From contig NZ_JACKUK010000044.1 of the NCBI RefSeq assembly GCF_025822765.1, positions 1,985-65,984 on the forward strand: a DNA stretch of 64,000 bases, given 5' to 3'. The position numbers and the translations under genes were made by a program. Source of the stretch: Mycobacterium barrassiae. GTDB lineage: Bacteria > Actinomycetota > Actinomycetes > Mycobacteriales > Mycobacteriaceae. The notes under the pieces are model-generated. The model was not told where the DNA came from, did no database searches, and saw nothing but the letters and a program-made list of their open reading frames with translations. Of the stretch, positions 45,546 through 63,469 are shown in pieces; position 1 is the first letter of the stretch, and each line of letters opens with the position of its first letter.

Positions 45546-45983
45546 GTGTTTCGGTTACTCACCAAGGCGTGGATGCCGCTGCTCCTGGTGGTGGTCGTCG
45601 CGCTCGGCGCGTACGCGGTACTGCGCATCCGCGGCGACATCGGCGGTCATGAGCTGACGACGGGTGCCGAATCGGGGGGCGGCTTCACCGATCCGTTCAA
45701 TCCGAAGAACATCACCTACGAAATCTCGAGTTCGTCGCCGGGCGGACCGGTCAGCGTCGACTATCTCGACGAGAACGGCCAGCCGCATCACGTCGACGCC
45801 ACCCTGCCGTGGTCCTACACGATCGTCACCACGTTGCCGTCGATGTCGGCCAATATCGTCGCCCAGGCCGCCGCCGGCGTATCCGATTTGCGGTGTCGCG
45901 TCGTCGTCGACGGTCAGGTGCGTGACGACCGCAGCACCGACGAGTACAAGCCGTTCATCTACTGCCTGGTGAAGTCCGTATGA
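45546..45983 (+). CDS. MmpS-family membrane accessory protein
   Basis: 145 residues. One N-terminal membrane helix (AWMPLLLVVVVALGAYAVLR) and a periplasmic beta-sandwich domain with NPKNITYEISSSSPGG, VSVDYLDENGQPHHVDATLP, WSYT and two Cys (LRCRV, FIYCLV). It pairs with the MmpL downstream, overlapping by ATGA, to move lipids or siderophores to the envelope. GTG 45546 has GAGGAGG ahead of it. Confidence 0.9.
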   Translation: MFRLLTKAWMPLLLVVVVALGAYAVLRIRGDIGGHELTTGAESGGGFTDPFNPKNITYEISSSSPGGPVSVDYLDENGQPHHVDATLPWSYTIVTTLPSMSANIVAQAAAGVSDLRCRVVVDGQVRDDRSTDEYKPFIYCLVKSV

Positions 45984-48847: not shown

Positions 48848-48866
48848 AAAACTAGGCTGACAGGCG

Positions 48867-49466
48867 ATGTCGGAATCCAAGCTGCGCCAGCGCACGGACG
48901 GTCGGCTCGACCGGTCCCGCGACCCTGCAATACTCGACGCCGCCCTGGCCTGCCTGACCGAGAACGGTTACGACGCAACGAACATGAATGACGTGGCCGA
49001 ACGTGCGGGCGTCGGAAAGGCGGCCATCTACCGTCGCTGGTCGTCGAAGGCGGCGCTGATGGCCGACGCCCTGGTCTACTGGCGGCCCGATCTGCTCGAC
49101 AACAGCGCCCCGGATACCGGAAGCCTGCGGGGCGACTTCGACGAGTTGGTCGAGCGTGTCAAGCGAAACGACGAATCCCTGGTGTCGAACGACCTGATCC
49201 TGCGCGTCGCGATGGAGGCTGCCAACGACCCGGAACTCGCGTCCGCGCTGGATCACCTGATGCTGTTGCGGGGGCCGCACGTCATCTCGACGATCTTGCG
49301 GCAAGCCGAGGCGCGCGGCGAGATCGCCGCCGGCCGGGACTGGTCACTGGTCGCCGACGTCACCACCGCGATGAGCCTGCTACGGGTGATCCGCGGGCAA
49401 CGAGTGGATGCGCCGTTCGTGCGGCAGCTGATCGACACGCTGGTGCTGCCCGCCATCGAAGGCTGA
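48867..49466 (+). CDS. TetR-family regulator (downstream of mmpL)
   Basis: 199 residues. The HTH AALACLTENGYDATNMNDVA, then GVGKAAIYRRWSSKAALMAD. The C-terminal domain has the TetR_C pattern of efflux regulators (PHVISTILRQAEARGEIAAG). At 19 bases after mmpL on the same strand it is likely cotranscribed and represses mmpS-mmpL. It could also act on the divergent-type sites of the next island, but the second TetR at 60652 is a better candidate for those. Confidence 0.87.
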   Translation: MSESKLRQRTDGRLDRSRDPAILDAALACLTENGYDATNMNDVAERAGVGKAAIYRRWSSKAALMADALVYWRPDLLDNSAPDTGSLRGDFDELVERVKRNDESLVSNDLILRVAMEAANDPELASALDHLMLLRGPHVISTILRQAEARGEIAAGRDWSLVADVTTAMSLLRVIRGQRVDAPFVRQLIDTLVLPAIEG

Positions 49467-49497
49467 TTCGCCTTCCGCCCCCGACCCGTTGGCGTAC

Positions 49498-49511
49498 TAT
49501 ACGCTCGTACA
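49498..49511. promoter_or_regulatory. Regulon palindrome site 1 (before GMC oxidoreductase)
   Basis: TATACGCTCGTACA, 30 bases before GTG 49542. One of seven copies of TAC[G/A]NN[C/T]GTA-type palindromes in the gaps of the 49-61 kb island. Confidence 0.7.
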
Positions 49512-49541
49512 GCACCGCTTGAGCGAGGGGCAGAAACCGCA

Positions 49542-51143
49542 GTGACGCGCTACGACTACATCATCGCCGGTGCCGGATCGGCCGGATGCGTGCTGGCGAG
49601 CCGGTTGTCGCAGGACCCGGCTGTCAATGTGCTGCTGATCGAGGCGGGTGGCCCCGACCGCAGTCCGTGGCTGCACATCCCCAAGGGATCGGGAAAGCTC
49701 TTCGACAGCGAGAAGTTCATGTGGCACTACGAGACCACCCCGTTCGGGCCCAATCCCCATGTCGAACAGTGGATGCGCGGCAAGGTGATCGGTGGCTCGA
49801 GCTCCGTCAACGGGATGATCTACAACCGGGGCCAACGCGCCGACTACGACGCCCTCGAGCGTCTCGGCAACAAGGGGTGGGGCTGGGACGACATCCTGCC
49901 GATCTTCAAGACGTTTGAAGACAACGCGTTCGGTGCGACCGCGACCCGCGGTTCCGGTGGTCCGCTGCACGTGTCCGTACCGCGTGATCCGGATCCCTTG
50001 TGCGAAGAGATGATCGACGCCGCGACCGGGATCGGGCTGAGCCGGGTACAGGACATCAACGAGTCGGACGAGGCGCGGATCGGCTACGCGACATCCACGA
50101 TCCGCAGCGGACGTCGCGTCAGCGCGGCGACCGCATTTCTCAAGCCCGCGTCGCGTCGCCCCAATCTGGAGGTCCGCACCGGGGTCACCGCGCGGCGGGT
50201 GGTGTTCGACGGCGACCGCGCGGTGGGCTTCGACGTCGCGACCGGCAACGGCACCGAAGAGGTGCGGGCCACCCGCGAGGTGATCATCGCCCTTGGCAGC
50301 CTGAACTCGCCGCGGCTGCTGCAGCTTTCAGGCATCGGTCCACGCGAGGTCCTGACGCACGCCGGTGTACCCGTGCGCCTCGACCGGGAGAACGTCGGCC
50401 GCAGGATGCGCGAACATCGCTGCGCCACCTTGCGGTATCGACTGAAAGAGGATCTCGGTTACAACAAGCGCCTGGCCACCAGCCTCGGACAGGCCCTCAC
50501 CGGGATGAAGTACCTGGCGACCCGCAAGGGGCCGCTCGCGGCGCCGTCGTTCGACGTCGTCGGCTTCGTCAAGGCGCAACCGGGCGCCGAGCGGCCGGAC
50601 GGGCAGGTGATGATGGGGCCCTGGACGCTGCCGCCGTACAACACCGGTGAGCCGGTCGTCATCGAGCGGGAGCCCGGGATTTCGTGCCTGGGCATGGTTT
50701 TGCGCCCCACCTCGCAGGGGTATGTCGAGATCACGTCCGCCGATCCGGCCGGCGCCCTGCGCATCACACCGAACTATCTGCACACCGCGGATGACCGTGA
50801 GGCGACAGCGAACCTGATGCGCACGATGCGCTCGATCTTCGAGCAGTCACCGATTGCTGAACGCATCAGCCACGAAACGTATCCCGGGCCTGAGGTGAGC
50901 AGTGATGCGGATCTGGTCGACGCCGCGCTCGACGGTGGCTACTGCGGCTATCACGCCGTCGGCACCTGCGCCATGGGCCCGAACGAGGACGACGTCGTCG
51001 ACAGCCAGCTGCGAGTCAGGGGAGTCGACGGACTCCGGGTGGTGGACTGCTCGGTGATGCCCACCATGGTCGCGGGGAACCTCAACGGGCCCGTGATGGC
51101 GATGGCCTGGCGCGCAGCGGATTTCATACTGCACGGCCGCTAG
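49542..51143 (+). CDS. GMC-family oxidoreductase (choline dehydrogenase-like)
   Basis: 533 residues. FAD-binding IIAGAGSAGCVLASRLSQ at the start, the GMC signature 1 region MRGKVIGGSSSVNGMIYNRG, signature 2 GSLNSPRLLQLSGIGP near 255, and the C-terminal catalytic His in GYHAVGTCAMG. It oxidises an alcohol to aldehyde or ketone with FAD. A regulon palindrome stands 30 bases upstream of the GTG start. It overlaps the convergent PLP-enzyme gene by 4 bases. The substrate is unknown; choline is not implied. Confidence 0.9.
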   Translation: MTRYDYIIAGAGSAGCVLASRLSQDPAVNVLLIEAGGPDRSPWLHIPKGSGKLFDSEKFMWHYETTPFGPNPHVEQWMRGKVIGGSSSVNGMIYNRGQRADYDALERLGNKGWGWDDILPIFKTFEDNAFGATATRGSGGPLHVSVPRDPDPLCEEMIDAATGIGLSRVQDINESDEARIGYATSTIRSGRRVSAATAFLKPASRRPNLEVRTGVTARRVVFDGDRAVGFDVATGNGTEEVRATREVIIALGSLNSPRLLQLSGIGPREVLTHAGVPVRLDRENVGRRMREHRCATLRYRLKEDLGYNKRLATSLGQALTGMKYLATRKGPLAAPSFDVVGFVKAQPGAERPDGQVMMGPWTLPPYNTGEPVVIEREPGISCLGMVLRPTSQGYVEITSADPAGALRITPNYLHTADDREATANLMRTMRSIFEQSPIAERISHETYPGPEVSSDADLVDAALDGGYCGYHAVGTCAMGPNEDDVVDSQLRVRGVDGLRVVDCSVMPTMVAGNLNGPVMAMAWRAADFILHGR

Positions 51144-52489
51144 ACGCCAAGGGCGGCTGTGAATTCGGTAACGAACCAGTCGGCATCGGACAGCGAAAAC
51201 ACCAGCGGTGGACGGATCTTCAGGACATTGCCGTCGTGGCCGCACACCGAGATCAGCACACGTCGCTCCCGCAGCGCGTTGACGAGCCGACGGGCCTGCG
51301 CGCGGTCGGGTGTATTCGTCTCGGGATCGGTGACGATCTCGACGCCCACATAGAGGCCCGCGCCGCGGACGTCGCCCAACCGGGGATCGTCGATCCCCGC
51401 CAGGTGCGTCCGCAGGGCTTGTCCCACGGTCGCCGCGTTGGCCAGCAGACCTTCGTCCTCGATCACGTCGAGGACTGCCGACGCCGCAGCGATCGACACC
51501 GGGTTGCCCCCGAAGGTGTTGAAGTACGGCACACCCACGGCGAACGGTTCGAGCACGTCCGCGCGAGCGGCCATCGCCGCGATCGGGATGCCGTTGCCCA
51601 TCGGCTTGCCCGTGGTCACGATGTCGGGCACGACGCCATGGCGGTCAAAACCCCACATCGCATCACCCGTGCGGGCGAATCCAGGCTGTACCTCGTCGGC
51701 GATGAACACCCCGCCGCGGGCGCGCACCTCGGCGACGGCGGTTCCGAGCACCGATGTGTCGGCGTAGATGCCGTCGGACGAGAAGATGGTGTCCACGATC
51801 AGGGCGCTGAGACCGTAGCCGGCCGCCGTCAGGTCGTTGGCGGCTTGCGCCACCTCGCCCGCGAAGCGGGCTGCGAGTTGATCCGCGGGTACGCGGTAGG
51901 TATCGGGCGGGTCAACGATCCGCACATTCGGCCCGATGGTGGTCGCACTGCCGAGCGACGGCGAGATCGAGGTCACCAGCGCCGTGTTGCCGTGGTAGGC
52001 ATCGCGGGTGATGATGACACCCGTTGCACCGGAACGCATCTCGGCGACACGTAGCGCCAGGTCGTTCGCTTCGGACCCGGTGCAGGCGTACATGACCTGG
52101 TTCACTTCGTCGGGCATGGTGGCCAGCAGCCGCTCGGAGTACTCGACGATTCCGCGGTGCACGTAACGGGTGTGGGTGTTCAGCGTCGCCATCTGCCGCG
52201 ACACCGCGTCCACGACGTGCGGATGGCAGTGCCCGACGCTGGCCACGTTGTTGTAGGCGTCGAGGTAGCGGGCGCCGTCGGCGTCGAACAGATGGCTGCC
52301 CCGCCCACGGACCAGGTGCACCGGTCGGTCGTAGAACAACCGGTAGGCGGGGCCGAGGACCCGTTCGCGGTCGGCGATCAGCGGATCACCGCCCGACCCC
52401 GCCGAGTAGCTGTTGGAGTCCATGATGTTCGAAAAGCTCACGCCCAGTGCCTCCGGCATTCGCAGGTGATTGCTGTCAGTCTGCTGCAT
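51140..52489 (-). CDS. Class-III PLP enzyme resembling amino-alcohol-phosphate phospho-lyases
   Basis: 449 residues. PLP lysine in VTTGKPMGNG, Asp in FIADEVQPGFARTG. The N-terminal half (LVRGRGSHLFDADGARYLDA, NNVASVGHCHPHVVDA, LNTHTRYVH) resembles ethanolamine-phosphate and phosphohydroxylysine phospho-lyases more than ordinary 4-aminobutyrate aminotransferases. It starts 26 bases from a divergent APH-type kinase, the same enzyme pair as in those pathways. Transaminase remains the alternative. ATG 52423 is a possible shorter start. Confidence 0.82.
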   Translation of the reverse strand: MQQTDSNHLRMPEALGVSFSNIMDSNSYSAGSGGDPLIADRERVLGPAYRLFYDRPVHLVRGRGSHLFDADGARYLDAYNNVASVGHCHPHVVDAVSRQMATLNTHTRYVHRGIVEYSERLLATMPDEVNQVMYACTGSEANDLALRVAEMRSGATGVIITRDAYHGNTALVTSISPSLGSATTIGPNVRIVDPPDTYRVPADQLAARFAGEVAQAANDLTAAGYGLSALIVDTIFSSDGIYADTSVLGTAVAEVRARGGVFIADEVQPGFARTGDAMWGFDRHGVVPDIVTTGKPMGNGIPIAAMAARADVLEPFAVGVPYFNTFGGNPVSIAAASAVLDVIEDEGLLANAATVGQALRTHLAGIDDPRLGDVRGAGLYVGVEIVTDPETNTPDRAQARRLVNALRERRVLISVCGHDGNVLKIRPPLVFSLSDADWFVTEFTAALGV

Positions 52490-52515
52490 CCGCCCGCGTG
52501 GGTCACACTGTGGGA

Positions 52516-53520
52516 GTGTCAGGACTTCCCGCCGATCACGATGTGTACGCGCGCGCAGCCCTACCGTCCTACGGACGGGCCCCCGACGCGCCGTTACGCC
52601 TGCTCAGCCTGTCGGAGAACGCCACGTACCTGGTGGACGACGGCGATCCGCTGGTGTTGCGGGTGCACCGCGCCGATTACCACTCACTGGACGCGATCCG
52701 CTCGGAGCTGGCCTGGATGGCGGCGCTGCGCGAACAGACCGACGTGGTGACGCCGCAGCTCATCCCGGCACGGGACGGCAGCGAGGTGGTCACGGTGGTG
52801 CGCAACGAGCTGCCACTCAACGTCGACGCCGTGACGTTCATCACCGGCTGCACGGCGGAGGAGATGCCGGAGGCCGTCGGCTTCGATCAGCTCGGCAGGA
52901 TCACCGCCACCATGCACGATCATGTCCAGCAGTGGAAGGCACCGACCTACTTCACGCGATTCTCCTGGGATCTCGACTCGATGATCGGGCCGAATGGTCG
53001 ATGGGGCAACTGGCGCGATGCTCCCGGGCTGAGCGTCGCCGGCGCGGACACGCTCGAACGAACCGTAGTGGAGCTGCAGCGCCGCCTCAGCGAATTCGGT
53101 TGTACTCCAGATCGATTCGGCTTGATCCACGCCGACCTGCGGATGGCGAACCTGATGATCGACCCGCAGGTGCCGAACGGACCCATCACCGTCATCGACT
53201 TCGACGACTGTGGCTGGACGTGGCATCTCGCCGATCTCGGCGCGGTGGTGTCGTTCATCGAGGACACGCCGGCGGCCGAGACGATGATCGCGGAGTGGCT
53301 CGCGGGCTATCGCGAGCAGCGTGAATTACCCGCCGAGCATCTGGAGATGATCCCCTCGTTCGTGATGCTGCGCCGGCTGCAACTCACCGCTTGGGTGGCC
53401 TCACATGCCAACGCCGACAGCGCAATCGAGTTCGCCGACGGTTTCGCCGAGGGCACAGCGCAGCTCGCTGGCCGCTACCTTGGCGACCGGGACTGGTTGC
53501 GCGGAGCCATCTACGCCTAG
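52516..53520 (+). CDS. APH-type small-molecule kinase
   Basis: 334 residues. N-lobe SLSENATYLVDDGDPLVLRV, catalytic HADLRMANLMIDP (about residue 215) and DFG-like VIDFDDCGWTWHLADL. Similar in layout to hydroxylysine kinase and SrkA-type kinases. GTG 52516 or GTG 52510 starts the frame, leaving just 20-26 bases to the divergent PLP-enzyme gene, so both are probably read from overlapping or leaderless promoters. Substrate inferred to be an amino alcohol. No regulon palindrome in this gap. Confidence 0.82.
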   Translation: MSGLPADHDVYARAALPSYGRAPDAPLRLLSLSENATYLVDDGDPLVLRVHRADYHSLDAIRSELAWMAALREQTDVVTPQLIPARDGSEVVTVVRNELPLNVDAVTFITGCTAEEMPEAVGFDQLGRITATMHDHVQQWKAPTYFTRFSWDLDSMIGPNGRWGNWRDAPGLSVAGADTLERTVVELQRRLSEFGCTPDRFGLIHADLRMANLMIDPQVPNGPITVIDFDDCGWTWHLADLGAVVSFIEDTPAAETMIAEWLAGYREQRELPAEHLEMIPSFVMLRRLQLTAWVASHANADSAIEFADGFAEGTAQLAGRYLGDRDWLRGAIYA

Positions 53521-53546
53521 CCATTGGTGAGCCGCCTCGGTTGTGC

Positions 53547-53560
53547 TATACATTCGTACA
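53547..53560. promoter_or_regulatory. Regulon palindrome site 2 (before SDR pair)
   Basis: TATACATTCGTACA, 18 bases before GTG 53579. Right half matches the consensus exactly; left half has ACA for ACG. Confidence 0.68.
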
Positions 53561-53578
53561 GCGAAGCGAGGAGCAGCG

Positions 53579-54307
53579 GTGAGTCGAGTGGCGGTGGTGA
53601 CCGGCGCGTCGGGTCTCGGCGAGGCAATCTGCACGGGGCTGGCCGCAGACGGCCACCGCGTCGGCGTGCTGGACGTCGACGCTGATGCCGCCGAGAAGCT
53701 CGCCGAAAAGTTGCGCGGCCGCGGTGCGCAGGCCACCGCCGTGGCGGCCGACGTCTCGGACGAAGCGGCATTCGCCGCAGTCCGAGCCGAATTCGGACCC
53801 CTCGCGATGCTGGTGACAAGTGCTGCGATCGGCGGATTCACCCGCTTCGACGAAATCACCCTCGACGAGTGGAACCGATACCTCGCCGTCAACCTGACCG
53901 GAACGTTCCTGAGCATCCGCGCGGCACTACCGGACATGGTCGAAGCCGGGTGGGGCAGAGTCGTGACGATCTCATCAGCAGCGGGCCAGCAGGGTGGGCC
54001 GAAACAAGGGCACTACTCGGCGACCAAGGGCGGCGTCATCGCGATGACCAAGACCGTCGCGCGCGATTACGCCCGGCATGGGGTCACCGCGAATTCGGTG
54101 CCGCCGTTCGTGATCGAGACACCGATGCTGCGCCGGCAGCAGGCCGAAGGAAAACTTCCGCCGGACGAGTATCTGACCCAGGCCATTCCGGCGGGCCGGG
54201 TCGGCGGTCCCGAGGATGTGGCGGCGGTCTGCTCGTTCCTCTGTTCAGAGGCGGCCGGATATGTCAACGGACAGGTCATCGGCGTCAACGGCGGTGCGGT
54301 CGTGTGA
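53579..54307 (+). CDS. Short-chain dehydrogenase/reductase
   Basis: 242 residues. VVTGASGLGEAICTGLAADG is a shortened cofactor loop. DVDADAAEKL suggests NAD. Catalytic Ser in VTISSAAGQQGG and Y-x-x-x-K in YSATKGG. The end VNGQVIGVNGGAVV is FabG-like. GTG 53579 has GAGGAGC ahead. It forms an operon with the next SDR 10 bases on and has a regulon palindrome 18 bases before its start. Confidence 0.88.
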   Translation: MSRVAVVTGASGLGEAICTGLAADGHRVGVLDVDADAAEKLAEKLRGRGAQATAVAADVSDEAAFAAVRAEFGPLAMLVTSAAIGGFTRFDEITLDEWNRYLAVNLTGTFLSIRAALPDMVEAGWGRVVTISSAAGQQGGPKQGHYSATKGGVIAMTKTVARDYARHGVTANSVPPFVIETPMLRRQQAEGKLPPDEYLTQAIPAGRVGGPEDVAAVCSFLCSEAAGYVNGQVIGVNGGAVV

Positions 54308-54317
54308 GAGGACTGGC

Positions 54318-55178
54318 ATGACGGAGAATCGTCCGGTTGCTGTGGTGACAGGAGCGAGCCGCGGCGCAGGTGCTGGAATCGCGCATGCGCTGGGCGCGCA
54401 CGGTTGCATCGTCTACGTGACAGGCCGCACTGTCGAAAGCGACGGAACCGTACGCGGAACCATCGGGGAGACGGCCGAAAAAGTCAGCGCGGCAGGCGGT
54501 GTGGGTATCGCGGCTCCTGTCGACCACGCTGACGACGAGCAGGTCGAGGCATTCTTCGAGCGGGTGGGCCGCGAGCAGGGCCGCATCGACATCCTGGTGA
54601 ACAACGCCGCGATCATCCGCGACGAGATGATGGGGCGCACCAAGTTCTGGGAAGAGCCGATCAACGTCATCGACACGCTCAACGTCGGACTGCGCAGCAG
54701 TTATGTGGCGACCGTGTATGCCGCACCTCTGATGGTGCCGCACGGCAAGGGCCTGGTCGTCTTCACCTCGTCATCGGGTTCGGTGCATTACGCCTTCGGA
54801 CCCGCCTACGGAGTCCCGAAGGCCGGTGTCGACAAGATGGCCGCCGATATGGCGTTCGACTTCAAGGACACCGGGATCGCTGCTGTCTCGATATGGATGG
54901 GCTCGCTGCTGACCGACCGGGTCCGGGCGATTGTCGCCAGTAATCCCGAGAAGTTCGGCCACATCCTCGACACCGCCGAGACGCCGGAATTGACCGGACA
55001 CGTGATCTGGGAGCTGTTCCGAGATCCGGCGGTGATGGATGTCACCGGGCAGACGTTGATTGGCGCTGAACTCGCCGTCAAGTACGGGATCACCGATGAG
55101 GGCGGACGCCAACCACCTTCCTACCGTGAGCTTTTCGATGTTCATCCGCACCGGCAATATGCTCACGTCATGCGCTAG
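54318..55178 (+). CDS. Short-chain dehydrogenase/reductase
   Basis: 286 residues. VTGASRGAGAGIAHALGAHG, NNAAI, catalytic Ser in FTSSSGSVHYAFG and Y-x-x-x-K in YGVPKAGVDK. VTGRTVESDGTVRG is the cofactor-specificity segment. It resembles the longer DHRS1-like SDR group, with WMGSLLTDRVRAIVASNPEK after the active site. ATG 54318 follows AGAGGAC. Second gene of the SDR operon; convergent with the nitroreductase 6 bases away. Confidence 0.88.
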   Translation: MTENRPVAVVTGASRGAGAGIAHALGAHGCIVYVTGRTVESDGTVRGTIGETAEKVSAAGGVGIAAPVDHADDEQVEAFFERVGREQGRIDILVNNAAIIRDEMMGRTKFWEEPINVIDTLNVGLRSSYVATVYAAPLMVPHGKGLVVFTSSSGSVHYAFGPAYGVPKAGVDKMAADMAFDFKDTGIAAVSIWMGSLLTDRVRAIVASNPEKFGHILDTAETPELTGHVIWELFRDPAVMDVTGQTLIGAELAVKYGITDEGGRQPPSYRELFDVHPHRQYAHVMR

Positions 55179-55184
55179 CAGCGC

Positions 55185-55856
55185 TCACTTGCCTCGAGGT
55201 CGAGCACCCCTGCCGTAGGTGATGTCGGCGTGGTCGGGATCCCAACTGTTGTGGAACACCACGTCGGACAACGGACGGCGACGGACGGGCCCGTGCCGGC
55301 CGCGTGGCCATCCGACGACGACGTGTCCAGCCAAGAACCATTCGTCGGGTACGCCGACGGCGGCGCGCAACGTCTTTTCACCGTCGTACGACGCCCAGCT
55401 GGTCAGGCATGCGCCGAGCCCTTGGGCACGGGCCGCGAGGTAGAAGTTCTGCATCGCGGGATAGATCGACGCGCCCTGCAGGAACTCCGAGGAGAACTCG
55501 TTCTTGAACGCGACGAACAGCACCGAGGTGAATTCGCCTGCGCGGTCGTGCAGTTCGTACGTGGCGCGATTGTTGCGAGCGGCGCGACTGTTGTCGGCAG
55601 GGTCGGGCCGCGTCATCCCGTAGACGGATTCGAATGACTGCAAAGCGATGTGCGCGGCCTCGGCGACGGCAGCGCGCTGCTCAGGAGCGTCGAGCACGAT
55701 GAAGCGCCACAGCTGCGCGTTGGCCCCGTTCGGTGCCCAGGTGGCGGCCTGCAGGCAGCGTTCCAGCATCTCAGGCGGAACGGGCTCGTCGGTGAACCGC
55801 CGGATCGAGCGAGCGGTCGACAGGACTTCCCATACGTCATCGGTGGGATACGGCAT
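55185..55856 (-). CDS. Nitroreductase-family flavoprotein
   Basis: 223 residues. FMN-binding TARSIRRFTDEPVPPEMLER near the start, ATWAPNGANAQLWRFIVLD, and YLAARAQGLGACLTSW. It is probably an FMN-dependent NAD(P)H reductase acting on nitro, quinone or enone groups. Its start faces the SDR at 55946 across an 89-base gap that holds regulon site 3, so one operator may control both. Confidence 0.87.
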   Translation of the reverse strand: MPYPTDDVWEVLSTARSIRRFTDEPVPPEMLERCLQAATWAPNGANAQLWRFIVLDAPEQRAAVAEAAHIALQSFESVYGMTRPDPADNSRAARNNRATYELHDRAGEFTSVLFVAFKNEFSSEFLQGASIYPAMQNFYLAARAQGLGACLTSWASYDGEKTLRAAVGVPDEWFLAGHVVVGWPRGRHGPVRRRPLSDVVFHNSWDPDHADITYGRGARPRGK

Positions 55857-55900
55857 TCCATCTATTTACTCGACCAGGGCCCTGATGTCGAGAGACATGC

Positions 55901-55914
55901 TGTACAGTCGTATT
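55901..55914. promoter_or_regulatory. Regulon palindrome site 3 (divergent nitroreductase/SDR gap)
   Basis: TGTACAGTCGTATT lies 44 bases from the nitroreductase start and 31 from the SDR start. Confidence 0.65.
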
Positions 55915-55945
55915 GCATCTGATCGGGACGGACGGGAGTGACTCT

Positions 55946-56716
55946 GTGAGCGACAGGTTTTCGATGGCAGGCAAGGTCGCCGTCATCACGGGGGGAGGCA
56001 CCGGTATCGGGCGGGCTTCCGCGCTCGTGCTGGCTGAACACGGTGCTGACATCGTGCTTGCGGGACGTCGTCCCGAGCCCCTCAAGGAGACGGCGAGTGA
56101 CATCGAGGCACTCGGGCGACGGGCTCTCGCCGTTCCGACGGACGTGACGAAGGCCGACGAGTGTCAGGCCCTGGTCGATGCGGCGCTCGGCGAGTTCGGA
56201 CGTGTCGATGTGCTGCTCAACAACGCCGGCGGCGGCGAGACGAAGTCGCTGATGAAGTGGACGGACGAAGAATGGCATCAGGTGCTGGACCTGAACCTGT
56301 CCAGCGCGTGGTACTTGTCGCGAGCCGTGGCGAAGCCGATGATCGCGCAGGGTAAGGGCGCGATCGTCAACATCTCCTCGGGTGCCGGATTGTTGGCCAT
56401 GCCGCAGGCGCCGATCTACGGTGCCGCCAAGGCCGGTTTGCAGAACCTGACCGGATCGATGGCCGCGGCATGGACGCGAAAGGGTGTGCGGGTCAACTGC
56501 ATCGCCTGCGGTGCGGTCCGCACCCCGGGCCTCGAAGCCGACGCGCAACGGCAGGGCTTCGACATCGACATGATCGGCCAGACGAACGGGTCGGGCCGGA
56601 TCGCCGAGCCCGACGAGATCGGATACGGGGTCCTGTTTTTCGCCTCGGATGCGTCGAGTTACTGCTCCGGGCAGACGTTGTACATGCATGGCGGTCCGGG
56701 CCCGGCGGGAGTTTGA
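55946..56716 (+). CDS. Short-chain dehydrogenase/reductase
   Basis: 256 residues. ITGGGTGIGRASALVLAEHG, AGRRPEPLKET (favours NADP), NNAGGGE, catalytic Ser in VNISSGAGLLAMPQ and Y-x-x-x-K in YGAAKAGLQ. Polar end YMHGGPGPAGV. GTG 55946 starts the family pattern (SDRFSMAGKVAVITGG). Regulon site 3 lies upstream; the glyoxalase-fold gene follows 2 bases after. Confidence 0.88.
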   Translation: MSDRFSMAGKVAVITGGGTGIGRASALVLAEHGADIVLAGRRPEPLKETASDIEALGRRALAVPTDVTKADECQALVDAALGEFGRVDVLLNNAGGGETKSLMKWTDEEWHQVLDLNLSSAWYLSRAVAKPMIAQGKGAIVNISSGAGLLAMPQAPIYGAAKAGLQNLTGSMAAAWTRKGVRVNCIACGAVRTPGLEADAQRQGFDIDMIGQTNGSGRIAEPDEIGYGVLFFASDASSYCSGQTLYMHGGPGPAGV

Positions 56717-56718
56717 CC

Positions 56719-57144
56719 ATGAATGTCAGCCACATCGGTCTCCGAGTTCGCGACCTGGATGCGTCCCTGAAGTTCTATGCCGCCCTTGGCTTCACCGAGG
56801 TGAAGCGCCTCACCGTGCCCGACCAGATGGCGCAGGGCCTGCTCGGCCTGGCTCCGCCGATCGGTTTCGAGGCGGTATACCTGCGCAACGACGGTGTCAT
56901 TCTGCAGTTGCTGACGTTCTCGGGCTATCCGGCGCCCGATGAGCCCGAGCGTGGGATGGTGGGCGCCGGACTGACGCACCTGTCGATCGCGGTGCCCGAT
57001 CTGTCCGCGGCTCAGGCCGCGGTGACCGACGCCGGGGGGAGCGTGGTCGCTGATCCGGGCGGAGGGTTCGCCGCAATGGTGCGGGATCCTGACGGTCAGC
57101 TGATCGAGTTGGTCAACGAGAAGGTTCGACCCATTCCGGTCTAG
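56719..57144 (+). CDS. Glyoxalase/VOC-superfamily protein
   Basis: 141 residues with two beta-alpha-beta-beta-beta modules. Metal ligands probably include His in VSHIGLRVRDLDASLKFYAA, a Glu or Gln in ILQLLTFSG, His in LTHLSIAVPDLS and Glu in DGQLIELVN. The layout fits a VOC isomerase, lyase or dioxygenase. Coupled to the SDR upstream (2 bases) and one base from the convergent LLM gene. Confidence 0.84.
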   Translation: MNVSHIGLRVRDLDASLKFYAALGFTEVKRLTVPDQMAQGLLGLAPPIGFEAVYLRNDGVILQLLTFSGYPAPDEPERGMVGAGLTHLSIAVPDLSAAQAAVTDAGGSVVADPGGGFAAMVRDPDGQLIELVNEKVRPIPV

Positions 57145-57145
57145 T

Positions 57146-57997
57146 TCAACGCAATTCGTCGATCATCGCGGCGTAGCGGTCGAGGAACGGTAGTGCGGTC
57201 GAGGGGTCATTGCCGTCGCGGCGACCACCGCCGATCACCACCCGGTTGAACCCGAGGTCGCGGTAGCGCGCGAGACGATTGGCGGACGGGTCGCCCCAGG
57301 CCATGATGGTCAGGTCGAGGGTCGCCGGGTCTCGGCCTGCGTCCTCGGCGAGACGCCGGAAATCGGCCAGCGCCTGCGAAACATCCCGGAATGCCGCATC
57401 GCCGGGCAGCCAACCGTCGGCCCACGGGAGGCTTTCTCGGATGGCTCTCGGGCCGGTGGCCGCCACCAGCAGTGGCGGAGCCGGCTGCTGATGTGGTTTG
57501 GGATGACACCAGACCGGGTCGAAGTCGTAGAAGTCACCGTGGTGTTCGGCTTCGTCGGCGGTCCACAGCACCCGCAGCGCAGCGACCATGTCGGACAGGG
57601 CCCGGTAGCGGTCCGCCCAGGCGATCGGATTGGAGACCGCGAGTTCCGCTCGCATCCCGACTCCTACGCCCAGCAGAAGCCGGCCTGCGCTGAACCGGTC
57701 GAGAGTGGCCACTTGCTTTGCGAACAAGAACAACTCGTGCTCGAGAGGCAACGCCACCGCAGTGCCGAGGCGGAGCGTGGTGGTCGATTGTGCCGCGGCA
57801 GCCAGGGACAGCAGGGGATCCCACATCCGCTGTTGTGCGTGCAGCAGCGCCGCAGGCATGGCGCCTGCAGAGGACACCGGGATCTGTGGATGCTCACCCA
57901 CCCACAGCGACTCGAACCCGCGCTGCTCCAGCTCCTTTGCGAGATCGCCAGGCGCGAGATCATGCGGCGTGTTCAGGCTGACGAATCCGATGTCCAT
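57146..57997 (-). CDS. LLM-class F420-dependent oxidoreductase
   Basis: 283 residues of luciferase-like TIM barrel. Motifs LAKELEQRGFESLWVGEHPQ, AAAAQSTTTLRLGTAVALP, GRLLLGVGVGMRAEL and ATGPRAIRESLPWADGWLPG. In mycobacteria this class mostly uses F420 rather than FMN. It faces the P450 gene across a 43-base gap containing regulon site 4, so reductase and P450 are probably co-induced. Confidence 0.87.
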   Translation of the reverse strand: MDIGFVSLNTPHDLAPGDLAKELEQRGFESLWVGEHPQIPVSSAGAMPAALLHAQQRMWDPLLSLAAAAQSTTTLRLGTAVALPLEHELFLFAKQVATLDRFSAGRLLLGVGVGMRAELAVSNPIAWADRYRALSDMVAALRVLWTADEAEHHGDFYDFDPVWCHPKPHQQPAPPLLVAATGPRAIRESLPWADGWLPGDAAFRDVSQALADFRRLAEDAGRDPATLDLTIMAWGDPSANRLARYRDLGFNRVVIGGGRRDGNDPSTALPFLDRYAAMIDELR

Positions 57998-58024
57998 CGA
58001 CTCTCCCTGTGCGTGGATAGCGTG

Positions 58025-58040
58025 CTGTACGATCGTACAG
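58025..58040. promoter_or_regulatory. Regulon palindrome site 4, perfect 16-mer (LLM/P450 gap)
   Basis: CTGTACGATCGTACAG is a perfect palindrome. It ends directly before the P450 GTG 58041 and is 27 bases from the LLM start. Bound repressor would cover the start codon or the transcription start of the P450 gene. Confidence 0.8.
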
Positions 58041-59222
58041 GTGAGCGTTCTGTACTACGACCCCTACAACGTCGAGATCGATCGGGATCCCTATCCGGTG
58101 TACAAGCGGCTGCGTGACGAGGCGCCGGTGTACTACAACGAGAAGTTCGACTTCTGGGGTCTGAGTCGCTTCGCGGACGTCGAATCCGCGCTGCGGGACG
58201 TCGACAACCTCAGTAACGCCAAGGGCGACATTCTCGAGGTCGTGAAGGCCGAACCGGTCATGCCGGACGGGGTGTTCATCAACGAGGACCCTCCGGTGCA
58301 CACGGTGCACCGCTTACTCGTGTCGCGGGCCTTCACTCCGAGGAAGATGGCGGCGATCGAGGAGCAGATCAGGACGTTCTGTGCGGCGTGCCTTGATCCG
58401 CTAAGCGACGGCGACCGTTTCGATTTCACGCTCGATCTCGGTTCGGAGATGCCGATGCGGGTCATCGGCATGCTGGTCGGAATGCCGGACTCACTGCAGC
58501 GCAGCGTTCGCAAGGTCGCTGGGGCGCGGTTGCGCAACAAACCGGGCGAGCCATTACCGGTCAAGAAGGACAACTACTTCAACGGCAACATGTTTCGGGA
58601 CTATGTGTCCTGGCGCAAGGACAACCCGTCCGATGACCTGGTCACCGAACTGCTCAACGTCGAATTCGAGGATGTCGACGGGCAGAAGCGGAAGTTGCGG
58701 ACCGAGGAGCTGCTGGTGTTCCTCGGTGTCATCGCCAATGCCGGTACCGAGACGGTGGGCCGGTTGTTCGGCTGGCTCGGCAAAGTGCTGGCCGATCATC
58801 CGGACGCGCGCCGCGAGCTTGCGGCGGACCCGTCGTTGATTCCCGGCGCCATCGAAGAGGTGCTGCGCGTCGAGCCGCCCGTACACAACATCGCCCGATA
58901 CGTGGCCAAAGGCGTTGAGTACCAAGGACAGACCGTGCCGGCCGGCCGTGCACTGCTGCTGATGGCGGGTGCGGCCAATCGGGACGAGCGCAGGTTCGAC
59001 GACCCCGACACCTTCGACATCCGGCGCAACCCCAACCATCTGACGTTCGGTCGCGGAGCGCATTTCTGCCTTGGGACGTCGCTGGCCCGCGTCGAGGGAC
59101 GGGTGGCACTCGAGGAGATCCTGAAGCGCTGGCCCGACTGGACCATCGACGAGGAGAACGCGGTCCGCGCCCCGACGGCCACGGTGCGGGGCTGGGACTC
59201 GATGCCCGCGATCGTCGGCTAA
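58041..59222 (+). CDS. Cytochrome P450
   Basis: 393 residues. Heme-binding FGRGAHFCLG with Cys343, ExxR in IEEVLRVEP, I-helix oxygen-activation segment VIANAGTETVGRLFG, and NRDERRF. It is soluble and would need a ferredoxin and reductase from elsewhere; none is encoded next to it. The GTG start directly follows the perfect operator, which suggests a leaderless transcript. It overlaps the convergent SDR by 4 bases. The substrate is unknown. Confidence 0.9.
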   Translation: MSVLYYDPYNVEIDRDPYPVYKRLRDEAPVYYNEKFDFWGLSRFADVESALRDVDNLSNAKGDILEVVKAEPVMPDGVFINEDPPVHTVHRLLVSRAFTPRKMAAIEEQIRTFCAACLDPLSDGDRFDFTLDLGSEMPMRVIGMLVGMPDSLQRSVRKVAGARLRNKPGEPLPVKKDNYFNGNMFRDYVSWRKDNPSDDLVTELLNVEFEDVDGQKRKLRTEELLVFLGVIANAGTETVGRLFGWLGKVLADHPDARRELAADPSLIPGAIEEVLRVEPPVHNIARYVAKGVEYQGQTVPAGRALLLMAGAANRDERRFDDPDTFDIRRNPNHLTFGRGAHFCLGTSLARVEGRVALEEILKRWPDWTIDEENAVRAPTATVRGWDSMPAIVG

Positions 59223-60004
59223 CGCGGTCGCACGGGCAGGTTGAGCCGGCTGTCAGGACCCTCTACCGCCGCGAAATCCATGGTCCACGGCCGCTTTCCG
59301 TGCTGGATCACCCAGCAGGATCCGGCGGCGCTCTTCGGTGCCGCCAGCGCTGCCAGCACTCCGTCGACGACCGCTTCGGGTTCCATCACGGGCACACCGA
59401 TGCTTTCGACGAGCGACCGCCGATCACCGAGAACGCCGGTCTCAGTGATACCCGGGCAAATGGTATGCACCGCAAAGTCTTCGGCGGCCAGGTTCGGGGC
59501 GATCGACCGCATGAATCCGACGACACCGTGCTTGCCGAGCGAGTAGACCGGATCGGGATGCCACGGCATCAGCCCGGCCAGGGAGGCGGTGGCCAGGATC
59601 GCGCGGTCTGAGTCACCGCCCAGCGACCGCATGGCACGCACAGCGGCGCGTACCCCGAACACCACGCCGTCGAGATTCACCCCCACCGACCGGCGGTACT
59701 GGGCCAGGTCCAGGGATCCGATGTCACCGGTCCAGTGGATGGTGATGCCCGCGTTCAGAAACGCCAGATCGAGCCCCCCGAACGCGGTCAGGCAGGACGC
59801 GAAGGCGGTATCCACCTGCTCCGGATCGGTGACATCGCAATGCAATCCGATGCCGTCGACGGTGCTGGCCACCTCGGAGGCGGCATCACCGTCGATGTCG
59901 ACGACACACACGCGCATCCCCTCGGCCGCGAGGCGCACCGCTGTCGCGCGACCGATGCCGGACGCACCGCCGGTGATGAGCGCGACGCGACCCGCGAGGT
60001 TCAC
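59219..60004 (-). CDS. Short-chain dehydrogenase/reductase
   Basis: 261 residues. ITGGASGIGRATAVRLAAEG, Asp in VVDIDGDAASE (NAD), LNAGITIHW in place of NNAG, catalytic Ser in ATASLAGLMPW and Y-x-x-x-K in YSLGKHGVVG. It follows the SnoaL-like gene by 3 bases, so it is the second gene of that operon under regulon sites 5 and 6. Confidence 0.88.
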   Translation of the reverse strand: MNLAGRVALITGGASGIGRATAVRLAAEGMRVCVVDIDGDAASEVASTVDGIGLHCDVTDPEQVDTAFASCLTAFGGLDLAFLNAGITIHWTGDIGSLDLAQYRRSVGVNLDGVVFGVRAAVRAMRSLGGDSDRAILATASLAGLMPWHPDPVYSLGKHGVVGFMRSIAPNLAAEDFAVHTICPGITETGVLGDRRSLVESIGVPVMEPEAVVDGVLAALAAPKSAAGSCWVIQHGKRPWTMDFAAVEGPDSRLNLPVRPR

Positions 60005-60007
60005 AGG

Positions 60008-60565
60008 TCACCACCGCTCAACGGGTTCGCTCTCCAGCTTGAGGGGACGGATGTAGGAGGCGTCGCTGCGGTCCCACTTGCCCTTGATGAATCCCTGGAC
60101 CGCACCGGAGTTGAGCACCGATGAGTCACCGCTGATCATCCATTCGATGGTGCAGCGGCGAAGCGCGATCTTCCAGACCCCGTCGCGCCGCTCGAGGCGG
60201 TCCAGATAGCGGCCGCCCATCAAGGACACGATCTTTCCGCCCTTGACGCGCATGGCGCCCATCACGTAGCTCTCGGCGTGGGCCTCATCGCCGTTGATCT
60301 CACAGGTGTGGGTGGTGATGTTGTGTAGGTGATCCTCGAACACCGCGGAATGCGCCTGATTGGCCCATTCACCGTACTCGGGGCCGGTTTTCACGGTCGG
60401 GCCGTGCTCGTCGATGCCGTCCTCGAAGTAGACGCTGCCCATGAGTTCGGCATCGTGACGGTCGTGTCCGCGTGCCTGATTCATCACGCAGTCGAGAATC
60501 GCGGTGCGGTCCTCGAGGTACTGCACGCGCAGGCGAAGCTGCTCGAGCTCATCGGTGTCCGTCAT
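60008..60565 (-). CDS. SnoaL/NTF2-like protein
   Basis: 185 residues. LRLRVQYLEDRTAILDCVMN is a helix start typical of the SnoaL-like group, followed by DAELMGSVYFEDGIDEHGPT, the cone-fold strands (MRVKGGKIVSLMGGRYLDRL) and WKIALRRCTIEW. Relatives are hydratases, isomerases or dehydratases for hydrophobic ring compounds. Regulon sites 5 and 6 stand 25 and 49 bases upstream. Confidence 0.84.
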   Translation of the reverse strand: MTDTDELEQLRLRVQYLEDRTAILDCVMNQARGHDRHDAELMGSVYFEDGIDEHGPTVKTGPEYGEWANQAHSAVFEDHLHNITTHTCEINGDEAHAESYVMGAMRVKGGKIVSLMGGRYLDRLERRDGVWKIALRRCTIEWMISGDSSVLNSGAVQGFIKGKWDRSDASYIRPLKLESEPVERW

Positions 60566-60590
60566 GAACTGTCCTTTCCGCGACGACCAG

Positions 60591-60604
60591 TTGTACGATT
60601 GTAT
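60591..60604. promoter_or_regulatory. Regulon palindrome site 5
   Basis: TGTACGATTGTATA, 25 bases before the SnoaL-like gene start at 60565. It is one of a tandem pair with site 6. Confidence 0.68.
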
Positions 60605-60614
60605 AGCATCGACG

Positions 60615-60628
60615 CCATACGAACGTAC
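60615..60628. promoter_or_regulatory. Regulon palindrome site 6
   Basis: CATACGAACGTACA, centre-to-centre 24 bases from site 5, just beyond the 3' end of the TetR gene. Confidence 0.62.
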
Positions 60629-60651
60629 AGCCCACGTAGGGGTCGGGGCAG

Positions 60652-61278
60652 TCAGCGGGACCGTTTGCGGGCAGCCGGTTTCCGCTTAGGGTTCGGCTCG
60701 ATCGAATCCAGATAACGTTCGAATGCCTTGGTCAGGTCGGCATGCGCGGTGTCGACCCCGACACCCTTTTCGAGGTTGAGGAACTTCGGCAGGCTGGAGA
60801 TCAGCAGCTGCAGAGCCGGTAGCGACAGATCGCCCCACGGTCGGGCGTCTGCGCCGAACTTCGCGACAAGCGCATCGAGCTGGAGCTTGCGCACACTTTC
60901 GGTCACGGCGGCGATCTCGGTGCGAATCGACTTGCGGTGATTGCCCAGCGCCATGAACTCCGTCATCATCGCGCCGGTCGCCTCGTCCCAGCTGTACTCC
61001 CACAGCGCGCGCAGCGGGTCTTCGGTCCGCTTCTCCAGAATCTTGTTGAGGTGATCGAGATTGCGGTCCGAATAACGCCGGATCGCCGCGATGAAAACGT
61101 CATCCAAGGTGGGGAAGTAATACTGCACCAGGCTCGGGGTGACCCCGGCCTTGGCGGCCAGGGCGCGATACGTGACGCTCGCGTATCCTTCTTCGAGCAT
61201 CATCGTTTCGACGCAGTCGAGCAGGTTGTCCCTTGTCTTGGACGTTTCGGCACCCACGCGCCGCGACGGCTTCGCCAT
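60652..61278 (-). CDS. TetR-family regulator, likely controller of the island
   Basis: 208 residues. The HTH reads VTYRALAAKAGVTPSLVQYY, then FPTLDDVFIAA, within residues 14-65. The C-terminal domain (ALWEYSWDEATGAMMTEFMA) resembles KstR-like catabolic repressors in general form. A basic tail (PKRKPAARKRSR) follows. Regulon site 7 lies 27 bases before ATG 61278, predicting autoregulation, and the same palindrome precedes the neighbouring operons. The ligand is probably a pathway intermediate. Confidence 0.88.
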   Translation of the reverse strand: MAKPSRRVGAETSKTRDNLLDCVETMMLEEGYASVTYRALAAKAGVTPSLVQYYFPTLDDVFIAAIRRYSDRNLDHLNKILEKRTEDPLRALWEYSWDEATGAMMTEFMALGNHRKSIRTEIAAVTESVRKLQLDALVAKFGADARPWGDLSLPALQLLISSLPKFLNLEKGVGVDTAHADLTKAFERYLDSIEPNPKRKPAARKRSR

Positions 61279-61305
61279 GCCTCGTATTCTGACATCCGCC
61301 GTTCC

Positions 61306-61319
61306 TGTACGGGCGTATG
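61306..61319. promoter_or_regulatory. Regulon palindrome site 7 (before the TetR gene)
   Basis: TGTACGGGCGTATG, 27 bases before the TetR start at 61278. It is also only 15 bases from the end of the glycosidase gene. Confidence 0.62.
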
Positions 61320-61333
61320 GCGAGCAATGTGTG

Positions 61334-63469
61334 TCAGCACACCAGTGGTGACCGCGCAGCGTTCGGATCGCCGCAGTAGCCGCCGGCTTCCACGGTGATG
61401 TCGCCTTCGTCGAGCACGAAACCCGCGTCAGTCCACCGCTGCAGCGGTCGAGCGGAGCAGTCGACCGTGACTGAGGCGCTTTCACCGGCCAAGACCGCAA
61501 TCGAGGTGAAGCCGACGAGGTGGCGCACCGGGTTTCCGTCGACCGCACGCACCGCGTACACCTGTACCACGTGGCGGCCGTCGCGGTCGCCGGTGTTGGA
61601 GACGGTGACCGTCGCGTCGAAGTGCTCACCGCGCACAGGGCTGAGCGTCAACTCGGTGATCGTGAACGTCGTGTAGCCGAGCCCGAACCCGAGCGGATAC
61701 GCCGCAGGCACGCCGTCGCGATCGAGCTTGCGCTGCCCCCACCAACGGTCGTAGGTGACCGCGCGGGAACGCCAATTCACCTGCGGCAGTTGATCGTGTC
61801 GTACCGGGGTAGCGACCGGCATCCGCCCGGCCGGTTCGGCGTCGCCCAACAAGATGTCGGCGATCGCGCGGCCACCCTCCATCCCGGGGTACCAGGCCAT
61901 CAGCACCGCGGAGACATCACGGTCCCACGGGTCGACGACCACGGTGCCCCCTCCTATGACCACCACCACGGTGTGCGGGTTGGCCGCGGCGACGGCACGA
62001 ATGAGCGCGACGTCCTCACCGTGCAATCGCAGATCGGCGCGGTCACCGCCGAACGTCCACCACCGCTGCGAGAACTTGAACAGCGCGCTGGCGAGTTTGG
62101 CGACCCATGGCCGACGCATGATTCCGCCGAACAACGCCATCGTGTCGGCATCGAGGGCGATCAACGCCTCGCCCTCGTCCTTCGGCGTCAGGCCGACAAT
62201 GACCACCGCGACGTCGGCGCTGCGCGCGTCCGTGACCACTCGATGACTTCCGAGCCGCTCCCGCAGGCCCTGCCGTACCGAGACGGTGTGTGGAGGTCTG
62301 ACGTTCGACGATCCCGTGTCACCCAGGTTGGGCCGGTCGGCGAGACGGCCGAGTACCGCTACACGCTGCAAATGTTGCTCTGTCAGCGGCAAGAGCGGTG
62401 TCCCGTCGGCTTTTTCGTTCCGCAACAGTACCGTCGCCCGGTGGGCCACCTCGCGGGCCAGCGCGCGGTGATCGGCACCGGCGACGACCGATCGAGGGGG
62501 AGCGGGTAGGGCACGCGCGGCGAACTCGAGCTGGGTGCGCAGGATACGGGCTCCGGCCCGCACCACGTCGTCCCGCTTCAACTCGCCGGAGCGCAGCGCC
62601 GCAGGTAACGCGCGAGCACGCTGCTGCCGGAACGGCATCTCCACGTCCTGGCCTGCCGCAACGGATTTGACCGGATACCGCAGACCCCACACCCAGTCGG
62701 TGTGCACGAATCCGGCGAACCCCCACTGGTCGCGCAGAATCTCGGTCAGCACGTGGGAGTTCTCCCCGGCCCATTCGCCGTTGACCGAGTTGTAGGCGGA
62801 CATCACCGAATCCACCCCGCCCTCGACGGCTCGGCGGAAGTGCGGAAGGTATCGCTCGTGGAGGATGTCCTCCGGCACGCTGACGTCGACCTGGAACCGC
62901 GCCTCCTCCATGGAGTTGAGGGCGAAGTGCTTCACGCTCGTGATCACCCATGGCTTCGCACCTTCGATTGCTGCGCAGCCCATTTCGCCGATGAGCAGCG
63001 GATCTTCACCGTAGGACTCCTGGGCGCGTCCCCAGCCGGGGAACGGGGCGACGTTGATGCATAGACCACCCCAGAAGTTGGCGCCGTGGGCGCGCGCCTC
63101 GGCCGCGATCGCGGCGGCAACGCGCCGTTCGATGTCGATGTCCCAGGTTGCGGCCCGTGCAATGGAGACGGGAAAGCTGGTCGACGGTGCGATGCCCACG
63201 CCGCGCGGACCGTCGGTGAAACGCAGCCCCGGGATGCCGATCCGGTCGATGCGGCCCGCCGTGACGGCGAGGAAGTTCGTCCGAGTCCGCGCACCGTCGA
63301 CGACGGATCTGACCATCGGCTTATCGCCGTCGAGCAGCCACAGCAGCTCGCGGTCCGTCAGCATGCGCAGTATTTCGTCGGCGGCTTCGTCGGAGCTCTT
63401 CTCGCCGCGTCGGACCGCGTCCACAGCATAGGCGAAAGGCGTTTCAGGTGAATAGATCTCGGGGCTCAT
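61334..63469 (-). CDS. Glycoside hydrolase family 3 (beta-glucosidase-like)
   Basis: 711 residues. GH3 N-terminal barrel with FTDGPRGVG, WGRAQESYGEDPLLIGEMG, SVKHFALN and nucleophile Asp258 in FVHTDWVWG (TDW in place of the more common SDW). The second domain has PGMEGGRAIADILLGDAEPA, and the C-terminus is a fibronectin-III-like domain (VTVSNTGDRDGRHVVQVYAV). No signal peptide, so it is probably cytosolic. Its start overlaps the stop of the threonine aldolase gene by one base. The sugar is unknown. Confidence 0.9.
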   Translation of the reverse strand: MSPEIYSPETPFAYAVDAVRRGEKSSDEAADEILRMLTDRELLWLLDGDKPMVRSVVDGARTRTNFLAVTAGRIDRIGIPGLRFTDGPRGVGIAPSTSFPVSIARAATWDIDIERRVAAAIAAEARAHGANFWGGLCINVAPFPGWGRAQESYGEDPLLIGEMGCAAIEGAKPWVITSVKHFALNSMEEARFQVDVSVPEDILHERYLPHFRRAVEGGVDSVMSAYNSVNGEWAGENSHVLTEILRDQWGFAGFVHTDWVWGLRYPVKSVAAGQDVEMPFRQQRARALPAALRSGELKRDDVVRAGARILRTQLEFAARALPAPPRSVVAGADHRALAREVAHRATVLLRNEKADGTPLLPLTEQHLQRVAVLGRLADRPNLGDTGSSNVRPPHTVSVRQGLRERLGSHRVVTDARSADVAVVIVGLTPKDEGEALIALDADTMALFGGIMRRPWVAKLASALFKFSQRWWTFGGDRADLRLHGEDVALIRAVAAANPHTVVVVIGGGTVVVDPWDRDVSAVLMAWYPGMEGGRAIADILLGDAEPAGRMPVATPVRHDQLPQVNWRSRAVTYDRWWGQRKLDRDGVPAAYPLGFGLGYTTFTITELTLSPVRGEHFDATVTVSNTGDRDGRHVVQVYAVRAVDGNPVRHLVGFTSIAVLAGESASVTVDCSARPLQRWTDAGFVLDEGDITVEAGGYCGDPNAARSPLVC

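Follow-up and report, generated by a model that had tools for sequence, protein, structure and literature searches.

A repeated 18-bp palindrome points to a probable cluster-restricted TetR regulon of oxidation genes in Mycobacterium barrassiae

In a 64,000-nucleotide stretch of Mycobacterium barrassiae DNA (assembly GCF_025822765.1, contig NZ_JACKUK010000044.1, positions 1,985 to 65,984 of the forward strand; hereafter the window), part of a genome of 5.9 Mb in 49 contigs, seven copies of a palindrome lie in the gene gaps of an 11.8 kb cluster that encodes oxidative enzymes and a TetR-family protein (60652-61278). From the sequence comparisons presented here, we consider it highly likely that the cluster forms a repressor regulon of its own, in which operators over or near promoters place 11 genes for the oxidation of a hydrophobic compound under TetR control. 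The palindrome itself is very probably bound by the TetR encoded at 60652-61278. An earlier note, made from the letters of the window, had proposed a TetR regulon marked by this palindrome, a proposal that gains support from the co-occurrence of TetR and operator in 248 genomes, from conservation of flanks that the search did not impose, and from the lack of the site at paralogous P450 and TetR genes.

In its full length the site is a palindrome of 18 bp, GCTRTACG-NN-CGTAYAGC. Allowing one mismatch at most, a search for the 18-mer GCTRTACRNNYGTAYAGC finds six places in the genome, and all six are in the cluster. The shorter 14-mer YRTACRNNYGTAYR is found seven times genome-wide, six of them inside the cluster. 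The window has eight copies of the core TACRNNYGTA, whereas 100 shuffles gave 0.52 on average and never more than 3. There are 63 core matches in the genome, seven of which fall within the 11.8 kb of the cluster, where 0.11 would be predicted from the remaining genome (Poisson p ~4e-11). The eighth match in the window, at 61557, was taken as chance, being within the open reading frame (ORF) 61334-63469 and missing the flanks. Since a reversed 14-mer, used as a control, also occurs seven times genome-wide, it is the clustering of the 14-mer and not its total count that is exceptional. The reversed 10-mer is even commoner than the core (177 versus 63). A reversed pattern is thus no strict null in this genome, and we therefore place weight on local density, on the shuffles, on the 18-mer and on the comparison across genomes. 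A check of core density in coding DNA, which the earlier note had suggested, was run in part, on 17 of the 55 core sites outside the window. Eight of these are inside predicted ORFs and nine outside, so that nothing about function can be read from the bare core; a single one, on contig C45, also fits the 14-mer. All seven palindromes listed at the outset are present, and the measured gaps between 14-mers and start codons agree with the proposed 1-44 bases, with the correction that the 14-mers given at 60591 and 60615 start one base later, at 60592 and 60616.

The same sites recur around orthologs of the TetR, with varying gene order. We compared 80 related loci (L054, L055, L057, L059, L073-L147 and L151), made up of 75 of the 78 loci from a scan of named genomes, four further loci and one plasmid; L148-L150 were excluded as partial, weak matches, and L053, L056, L058 and L060-L067 were taken as contigs of loci already included. 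The 75 loci come from Mycobacterium, Mycolicibacterium, Rhodococcus, Nocardia, Williamsia, Blastococcus, Actinomadura, Frankia, Parafrankia and metagenome-assembled genomes. The set holds 249 14-mers and three matches to the reversed control. Counting a site as inside a gene when it is more than 30 bp from the gene's end, 227 of the 249 are not inside predicted genes, though the loci are 86% coding. At least one 14-mer is present in 75 of the 80 loci, and at least one core in 78. The two positions that flank the searched 14-mer are symmetrically conserved (C in 86%, G in 67%); the flanks outside the search pattern are thus kept as a palindrome, and the sites are therefore unlike chance matches. 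In L053 and L059 an 18-mer identical to that at 55899..55916 likewise stands between the nitroreductase and SDR3 genes.

The site also follows the regulator. Among 248 genomes of the same genus, 52 have the TetR (a match at E 1e-55 or better), and at least three 18-mers, at up to one mismatch, are found in 49 of these 52 and in none of the 196 others (Fisher p ~1e-48, with related genomes not being independent). The mean number of 18-mers per genome is 4.67 with the TetR (n=52) and 0.15 without it (n=196). Because the cluster carries the TetR and the enzymes together, we tested the site in loci lacking the partner enzymes, and of ten loci without any of ten such enzymes (at 45% identity), six have the 14-mer and eight the core.

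Comparison with paralogs points in the same direction. TetR orthologs of at least 56% identity are present in 15 of 301 genomes of the family, this one included, and the next group reaches 53%. When 34 TetR genes were compared, once rows duplicating another's identity and helix had been dropped and with the window's TetR outside the set, a core site lay upstream of tetR in 10 of 15 orthologs (55-75% identity) and in none of 19 other TetR genes (32-52%). The recognition-helix string is LVQYYF, and most of the 19 others have Y, H or another residue in place of Q. Similarly, the best P450 ortholog (at least 67% identity) has an upstream core site in nine of nine genomes, and the fetched paralogs (54-59%) have one in 0 of 21; this comparison covers 30 fetched loci among the matches listed, with second copies of 66-71% in three genomes left out. 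P450s of at least 66% identity occur in nine of the 301 genomes, and all nine have the TetR.

The regulator matches the TetR_N helix-turn-helix domain (PF00440, 28.5 bits against a cut-off of 24), and its predicted structure has an all-helical TetR-type fold. We suggest that it acts as a local repressor whose dimer would bind the 18-bp palindrome in six gene gaps and so keep the 11 genes off, namely those for GMC, SDR1-SDR2, nitroreductase, SDR3-glyoxalase, LLM, P450 and SnoaL-SDR4, together with tetR. A small hydrophobic compound or an early metabolite would bind the C-terminal domain and free the TetR from DNA. This release would switch on a pathway of oxidative catabolism (or detoxification), whose steps could include P450 hydroxylation, alcohol oxidation by SDR and GMC enzymes, flavin- or F420-dependent LLM reactions and a SnoaL step. 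A possible -10 hexamer, TANNNT, is present in six of the seven palindromes of the window on a neighboring gene's strand, the exception being the site upstream of tetR. Across the 80 loci and the window, 105 distinct sites have a gene on one side only, and TANNNT is in the sense direction in 59 and antisense in 29 (sign test p 2e-4). Given the TANNNT inside the palindromes and the TetR family membership, the simplest reading would be repression by covering of the promoter.

Several observations weigh against this picture. Three genomes with the TetR have fewer than three sites (none in G397, one in G307, which is 70% complete, and two in G388), three of the 196 genomes lacking the TetR carry two 18-mers, and 22 of the 249 14-mers in the related loci are inside predicted genes. 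The site upstream of tetR is the weakest of the seven, and its two mismatches are equaled by six places elsewhere in the genome; five of the 15 tetR orthologs lack a core site immediately before the gene, so that autoregulation would be common and not universal. Three TetRs that are not orthologs (52, 50 and 40% identity) share LVQYYF yet have no upstream site, and the helix alone therefore fails to predict the site. The TANNNT asymmetry comes mostly from SDR1 sites (22 versus 1 of 26), with 37 versus 28 at the other 79 sites; sites before tetR do not show it (1 versus 2 of 10), and related sites are not independent. The predicted TetR structure is moderately confident (predicted local distance difference test score, pLDDT, of 78) and points to no ligand; searches of solved structures and a fold comparison likewise returned TetR and P450 relatives of a generic kind and gave no hint of a ligand. 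As for G397, this genome encodes a TetR ortholog (65%, C144:15583-16200) and has no 18-mer at one mismatch, and its regulon has perhaps decayed or changed.

The candidate operators and the 11 genes are listed in the table, with family assignments from Pfam and NCBIfam.

Table. Candidate operators and genes of the proposed TetR regulon, with mismatches to the 18-mer and the gap in bases between 14-mer and start codon.
Feature	Position	Strand	Context or assignment	Mismatches	Gap to start
Operator ACTATACGCTCGTACAGC	49496..49513		upstream of GMC oxidoreductase	1	30
Operator GCTATACATTCGTACAGC	53545..53562		upstream of SDR1-SDR2	0	18 (SDR1)
Operator GCTGTACAGTCGTATTGC	55899..55916		between nitroreductase (-) and SDR3-glyoxalase (+)	1	44 (nitroreductase), 31 (SDR3)
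Operator GCTGTACGATCGTACAGG	58024..58041		between LLM (-) and P450 (+)	1	28 (LLM), 1 (P450)
Operator GTTGTACGATTGTATAGC	60590..60607		upstream of SnoaL-SDR4	1	26 (SnoaL)
Operator GCCATACGAACGTACAGC	60614..60631		second SnoaL-SDR4 site, 24 bp upstream of 60590..60607	1	
Operator CCTGTACGGGCGTATGGC	61304..61321		upstream of tetR	2	27 (TetR)
GMC-family oxidoreductase	49542..51143	+	PRK02106/BetA-like, under curated cut-offs		
SDR1	53579..54307	+	SDR family; GTG start		
SDR2	54312..55178	+	family match (Pfam, NCBIfam)		
Nitroreductase-family protein	55185..55856	-	best NCBIfam match BluB, under cut-off		
SDR3	55946..56716	+	GTG start		
Glyoxalase-family protein	56719..57144	+	family match (Pfam, NCBIfam)		
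F420-dependent LLM-class oxidoreductase	57146..57997	-	TIGR03619, over cut-off		
Cytochrome P450	58041..59222	+	family match; GTG start		
SDR4	59219..60004	-	family match		
SnoaL_4-family protein	60008..60565	-	Pfam		
TetR-family regulator, 208 amino acids	60652..61278	-	Pfam TetR_N and TetR-like predicted fold		

The SDR1-SDR2 operator overlaps an extended -10-like TGCTATACAT, and the one at 60590..60607 a -10-like TATACAAT on the minus strand. The SDR1 start was moved from 53543 to the GTG at 53579, which follows a stretch resembling a ribosome binding site. The final base of the operator before the P450 gene is the first base of its GTG, and the P450 mRNA may for this reason be leaderless. 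Through the site at 61304..61321, autoregulation of tetR is possible. Close pairs like the one before SnoaL, 15-36 bp apart, number 49 in the 80 loci and the window, most commonly spaced by 23, 18 or 20 bp. Between 51140 and 53520 the cluster also holds a class III aminotransferase gene (-) and a divergent APH-type phosphotransferase-like gene (+), neither of which has an operator; each is a cluster of size 1, with no counterpart in the 80 related loci, and both were left out of the 11-gene count. Among the window proteins scanned and the matches listed, only the LLM protein exceeds a curated NCBIfam cut-off.

What the pathway acts on can be approached through the genes that accompany the site. 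Across the 80 loci the partners met most often are SnoaL (62), SDR1 (50), SDR3 (50), P450 (49) and SDR2 (39). Other families are NtaA/DmoA-type LLM proteins, which are site-linked in 21 of the 24 loci that have them, TIGR03564 LLM proteins (11 of 22 loci) and another P450 (8 of 24). A few loci add aldehyde dehydrogenase, CMD, TauD, sulfotransferase or amidohydrolase genes, for which 32 of 70 additional site-linked genes were scanned, with one taken from each picked cluster. We tentatively picture the compound as hydrophobic and perhaps alicyclic or terpenoid-like, though with less than even confidence; the hydrophobic ring compound suggested in the earlier note is a plausible guess. The regulon might instead serve detoxification or the biosynthesis of a secondary metabolite, which we regard as unlikely, yet the most serious of the alternatives. 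In its favor, P450, SDR, SnoaL and nitroreductase families occur in such pathways too, and CoA ligase and beta-oxidation genes are not among the 11. On the other side, the 13 annotated window genes from 49542 to 61278 include no polyketide, peptide or terpene synthase, and the neighborhood of a Rhodococcus globerulus TetR that has one core site and no 14-mer looks catabolic, with aldehyde dehydrogenase, CMD, LuxC-like and hydroxyisobutyrate-dehydrogenase-like genes.

A different possibility concerns the sign of the control. The TetR could activate, or act in both directions depending on the position of the site, as might fit site-to-start distances of up to 243 bp in related loci, where tandem pairs 18-24 bp apart are common. 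The sites in the window are 1-44 bp from starts, where a bound dimer should block the promoter, and although position alone cannot exclude activation, we give this idea little credence compared with repression.

Even less probable, in our estimation, is that another regulator binds the palindrome, be it a factor acting genome-wide or TetR1 (48867-49466), another TetR protein, whose gene is next to an MmpL gene and immediately upstream of the first site. In the 80 loci, where the sites are present, no predicted protein is closely related to TetR1 (the best match reaches 34% over 160 amino acids, in one locus), and a genome-wide factor does not fit with six strong sites in one cluster and with 0 of 196 TetR-less genomes having three or more sites. 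That the repeats are an artefact of chance or composition is scarcely credible: the frequency of the core and of the reversed 14-mer in this genome could be cited for it, but the local clustering, the 249 matches against three for the control across genera and the conservation of the sites with the TetR across genomes speak against it.

Window positions 45980-49466 contain an MmpL-family transporter gene followed by TetR1 (TetR_C_11), and an operator of the kind described here precedes neither gene. On another contig (C16:40530-40561, L015:1501-1532), two palindromes that are related to the present one yet distinct in type, CAATACGTTTGTATGG and CAATACGTCTGTATTG, are located in tandem, 22 bp apart, just upstream of a further TetR gene (L015:1573-2208), and together these probably constitute a second local TetR circuit.

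Returning to the repressor regulon, we lean, by a small margin, toward regarding the TetR and its 18-bp operator as a portable control module. The pair would be kept across relatives in Mycobacterium, Rhodococcus, Nocardia, Williamsia, Blastococcus, Actinomadura and Frankia, and once on a mobilizable plasmid, while the enzyme genes change by lineage, and new oxidation genes would come under one inducer response by gaining the palindrome. The plasmid in question is pJCM13574 (L151), from Mycolicibacterium madagascariense; it is typed as mobilizable and encodes a TetR that is 76% identical. In 40.6 kb around this gene there are 11 operator-type 14-mers among P450, SDR, GMC, CMD, sulfotransferase and nitroreductase genes. 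More distant TetR relatives (50-52% identity, L053:18048 and L068:5664) are found within ~1 kb of variant palindromes, CTATACAGGTGTAYAA, which are perhaps the operator drifted in its center and flanks. For a gene set whose TetR occurs in related actinobacteria and, within the genus, in 52 of the 248 species sampled, our analysis supplies a testable operator and regulator. The inducer would be a handle on the substrate of several P450, SDR, LLM and SnoaL proteins, and once the ligand is known, the TetR-operator pair could be used as a biosensor.

The regulon was described in the earlier note as undescribed, and this fits the literature searched: queries by operator letters and gene families, which reached few subscription papers, returned no account of the operator or the cluster. 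Operator letters in PMC11596240 proved, in the accessible part of that paper, to be primers in a study of another subject. The mycofactocin system was considered and rejected, as the GMC protein scores 291.7 bits against an MftG cut-off of 387.45, SDR3 scores 182.3 against 300, and the regulon TetR has no MftR match.

Among known systems, camphor-type terpenoid catabolism proceeds by a P450, then a dehydrogenase, then a flavin LLM monooxygenase. Enzymes of these classes could conceivably act in that order here, where NtaA/DmoA LLM genes are site-linked, a comparison made by enzyme class only. KstR, a repressor of cholesterol catabolism, is likewise a TetR-family protein with a palindromic operator and a catabolic regulon; the regulon described here differs in being local, and its TetR has no match at E 0.001 to the NCBIfam KstR model (NF033703, equivalog cut-off 280 bits).

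The nearest parallel is KstR2, also a TetR repressor of cholesterol catabolism, in Mycobacterium and Rhodococcus. As set out in the KstR2 study, this local repressor recognizes a 14-bp palindrome, AnCAAGnnCTTGnT, that is present in three gaps within a single catabolic cluster; the majority of sites are 22-82 bp from starts, one precedes the regulator's own gene, they are conserved across actinomycetes, and binding was proven by electrophoretic mobility shift assay (EMSA) (PMC3068626). The two systems thus share a local cluster, a repeated palindrome and a site before the regulator's own gene. They differ in the palindrome (AnCAAGnnCTTGnT versus GCTRTACGNNCGTAYAGC here), in the genes, and in that KstR2 binding was established by EMSA, whereas the binding proposed here is predicted from sequence. 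The earlier note was right that the sites do not look like the KstR2 operator: all seven have TAC..GTA half-sites, clearly unlike AnCAAGnnCTTGnT as given in that text. The same kind of inference underlies BkaR and the predicted mycobacterial TetR motifs of Balhana et al. (2015), palindromes in gaps beside TetR genes (PMC4482099); the motif table covers M. tuberculosis (Rv) regulators, and our comparison was by this table of regulators, not by motif logos. Set beside these systems, the regulon appears to be a new one of a well-known kind, a local TetR repressor with a repeated palindrome.

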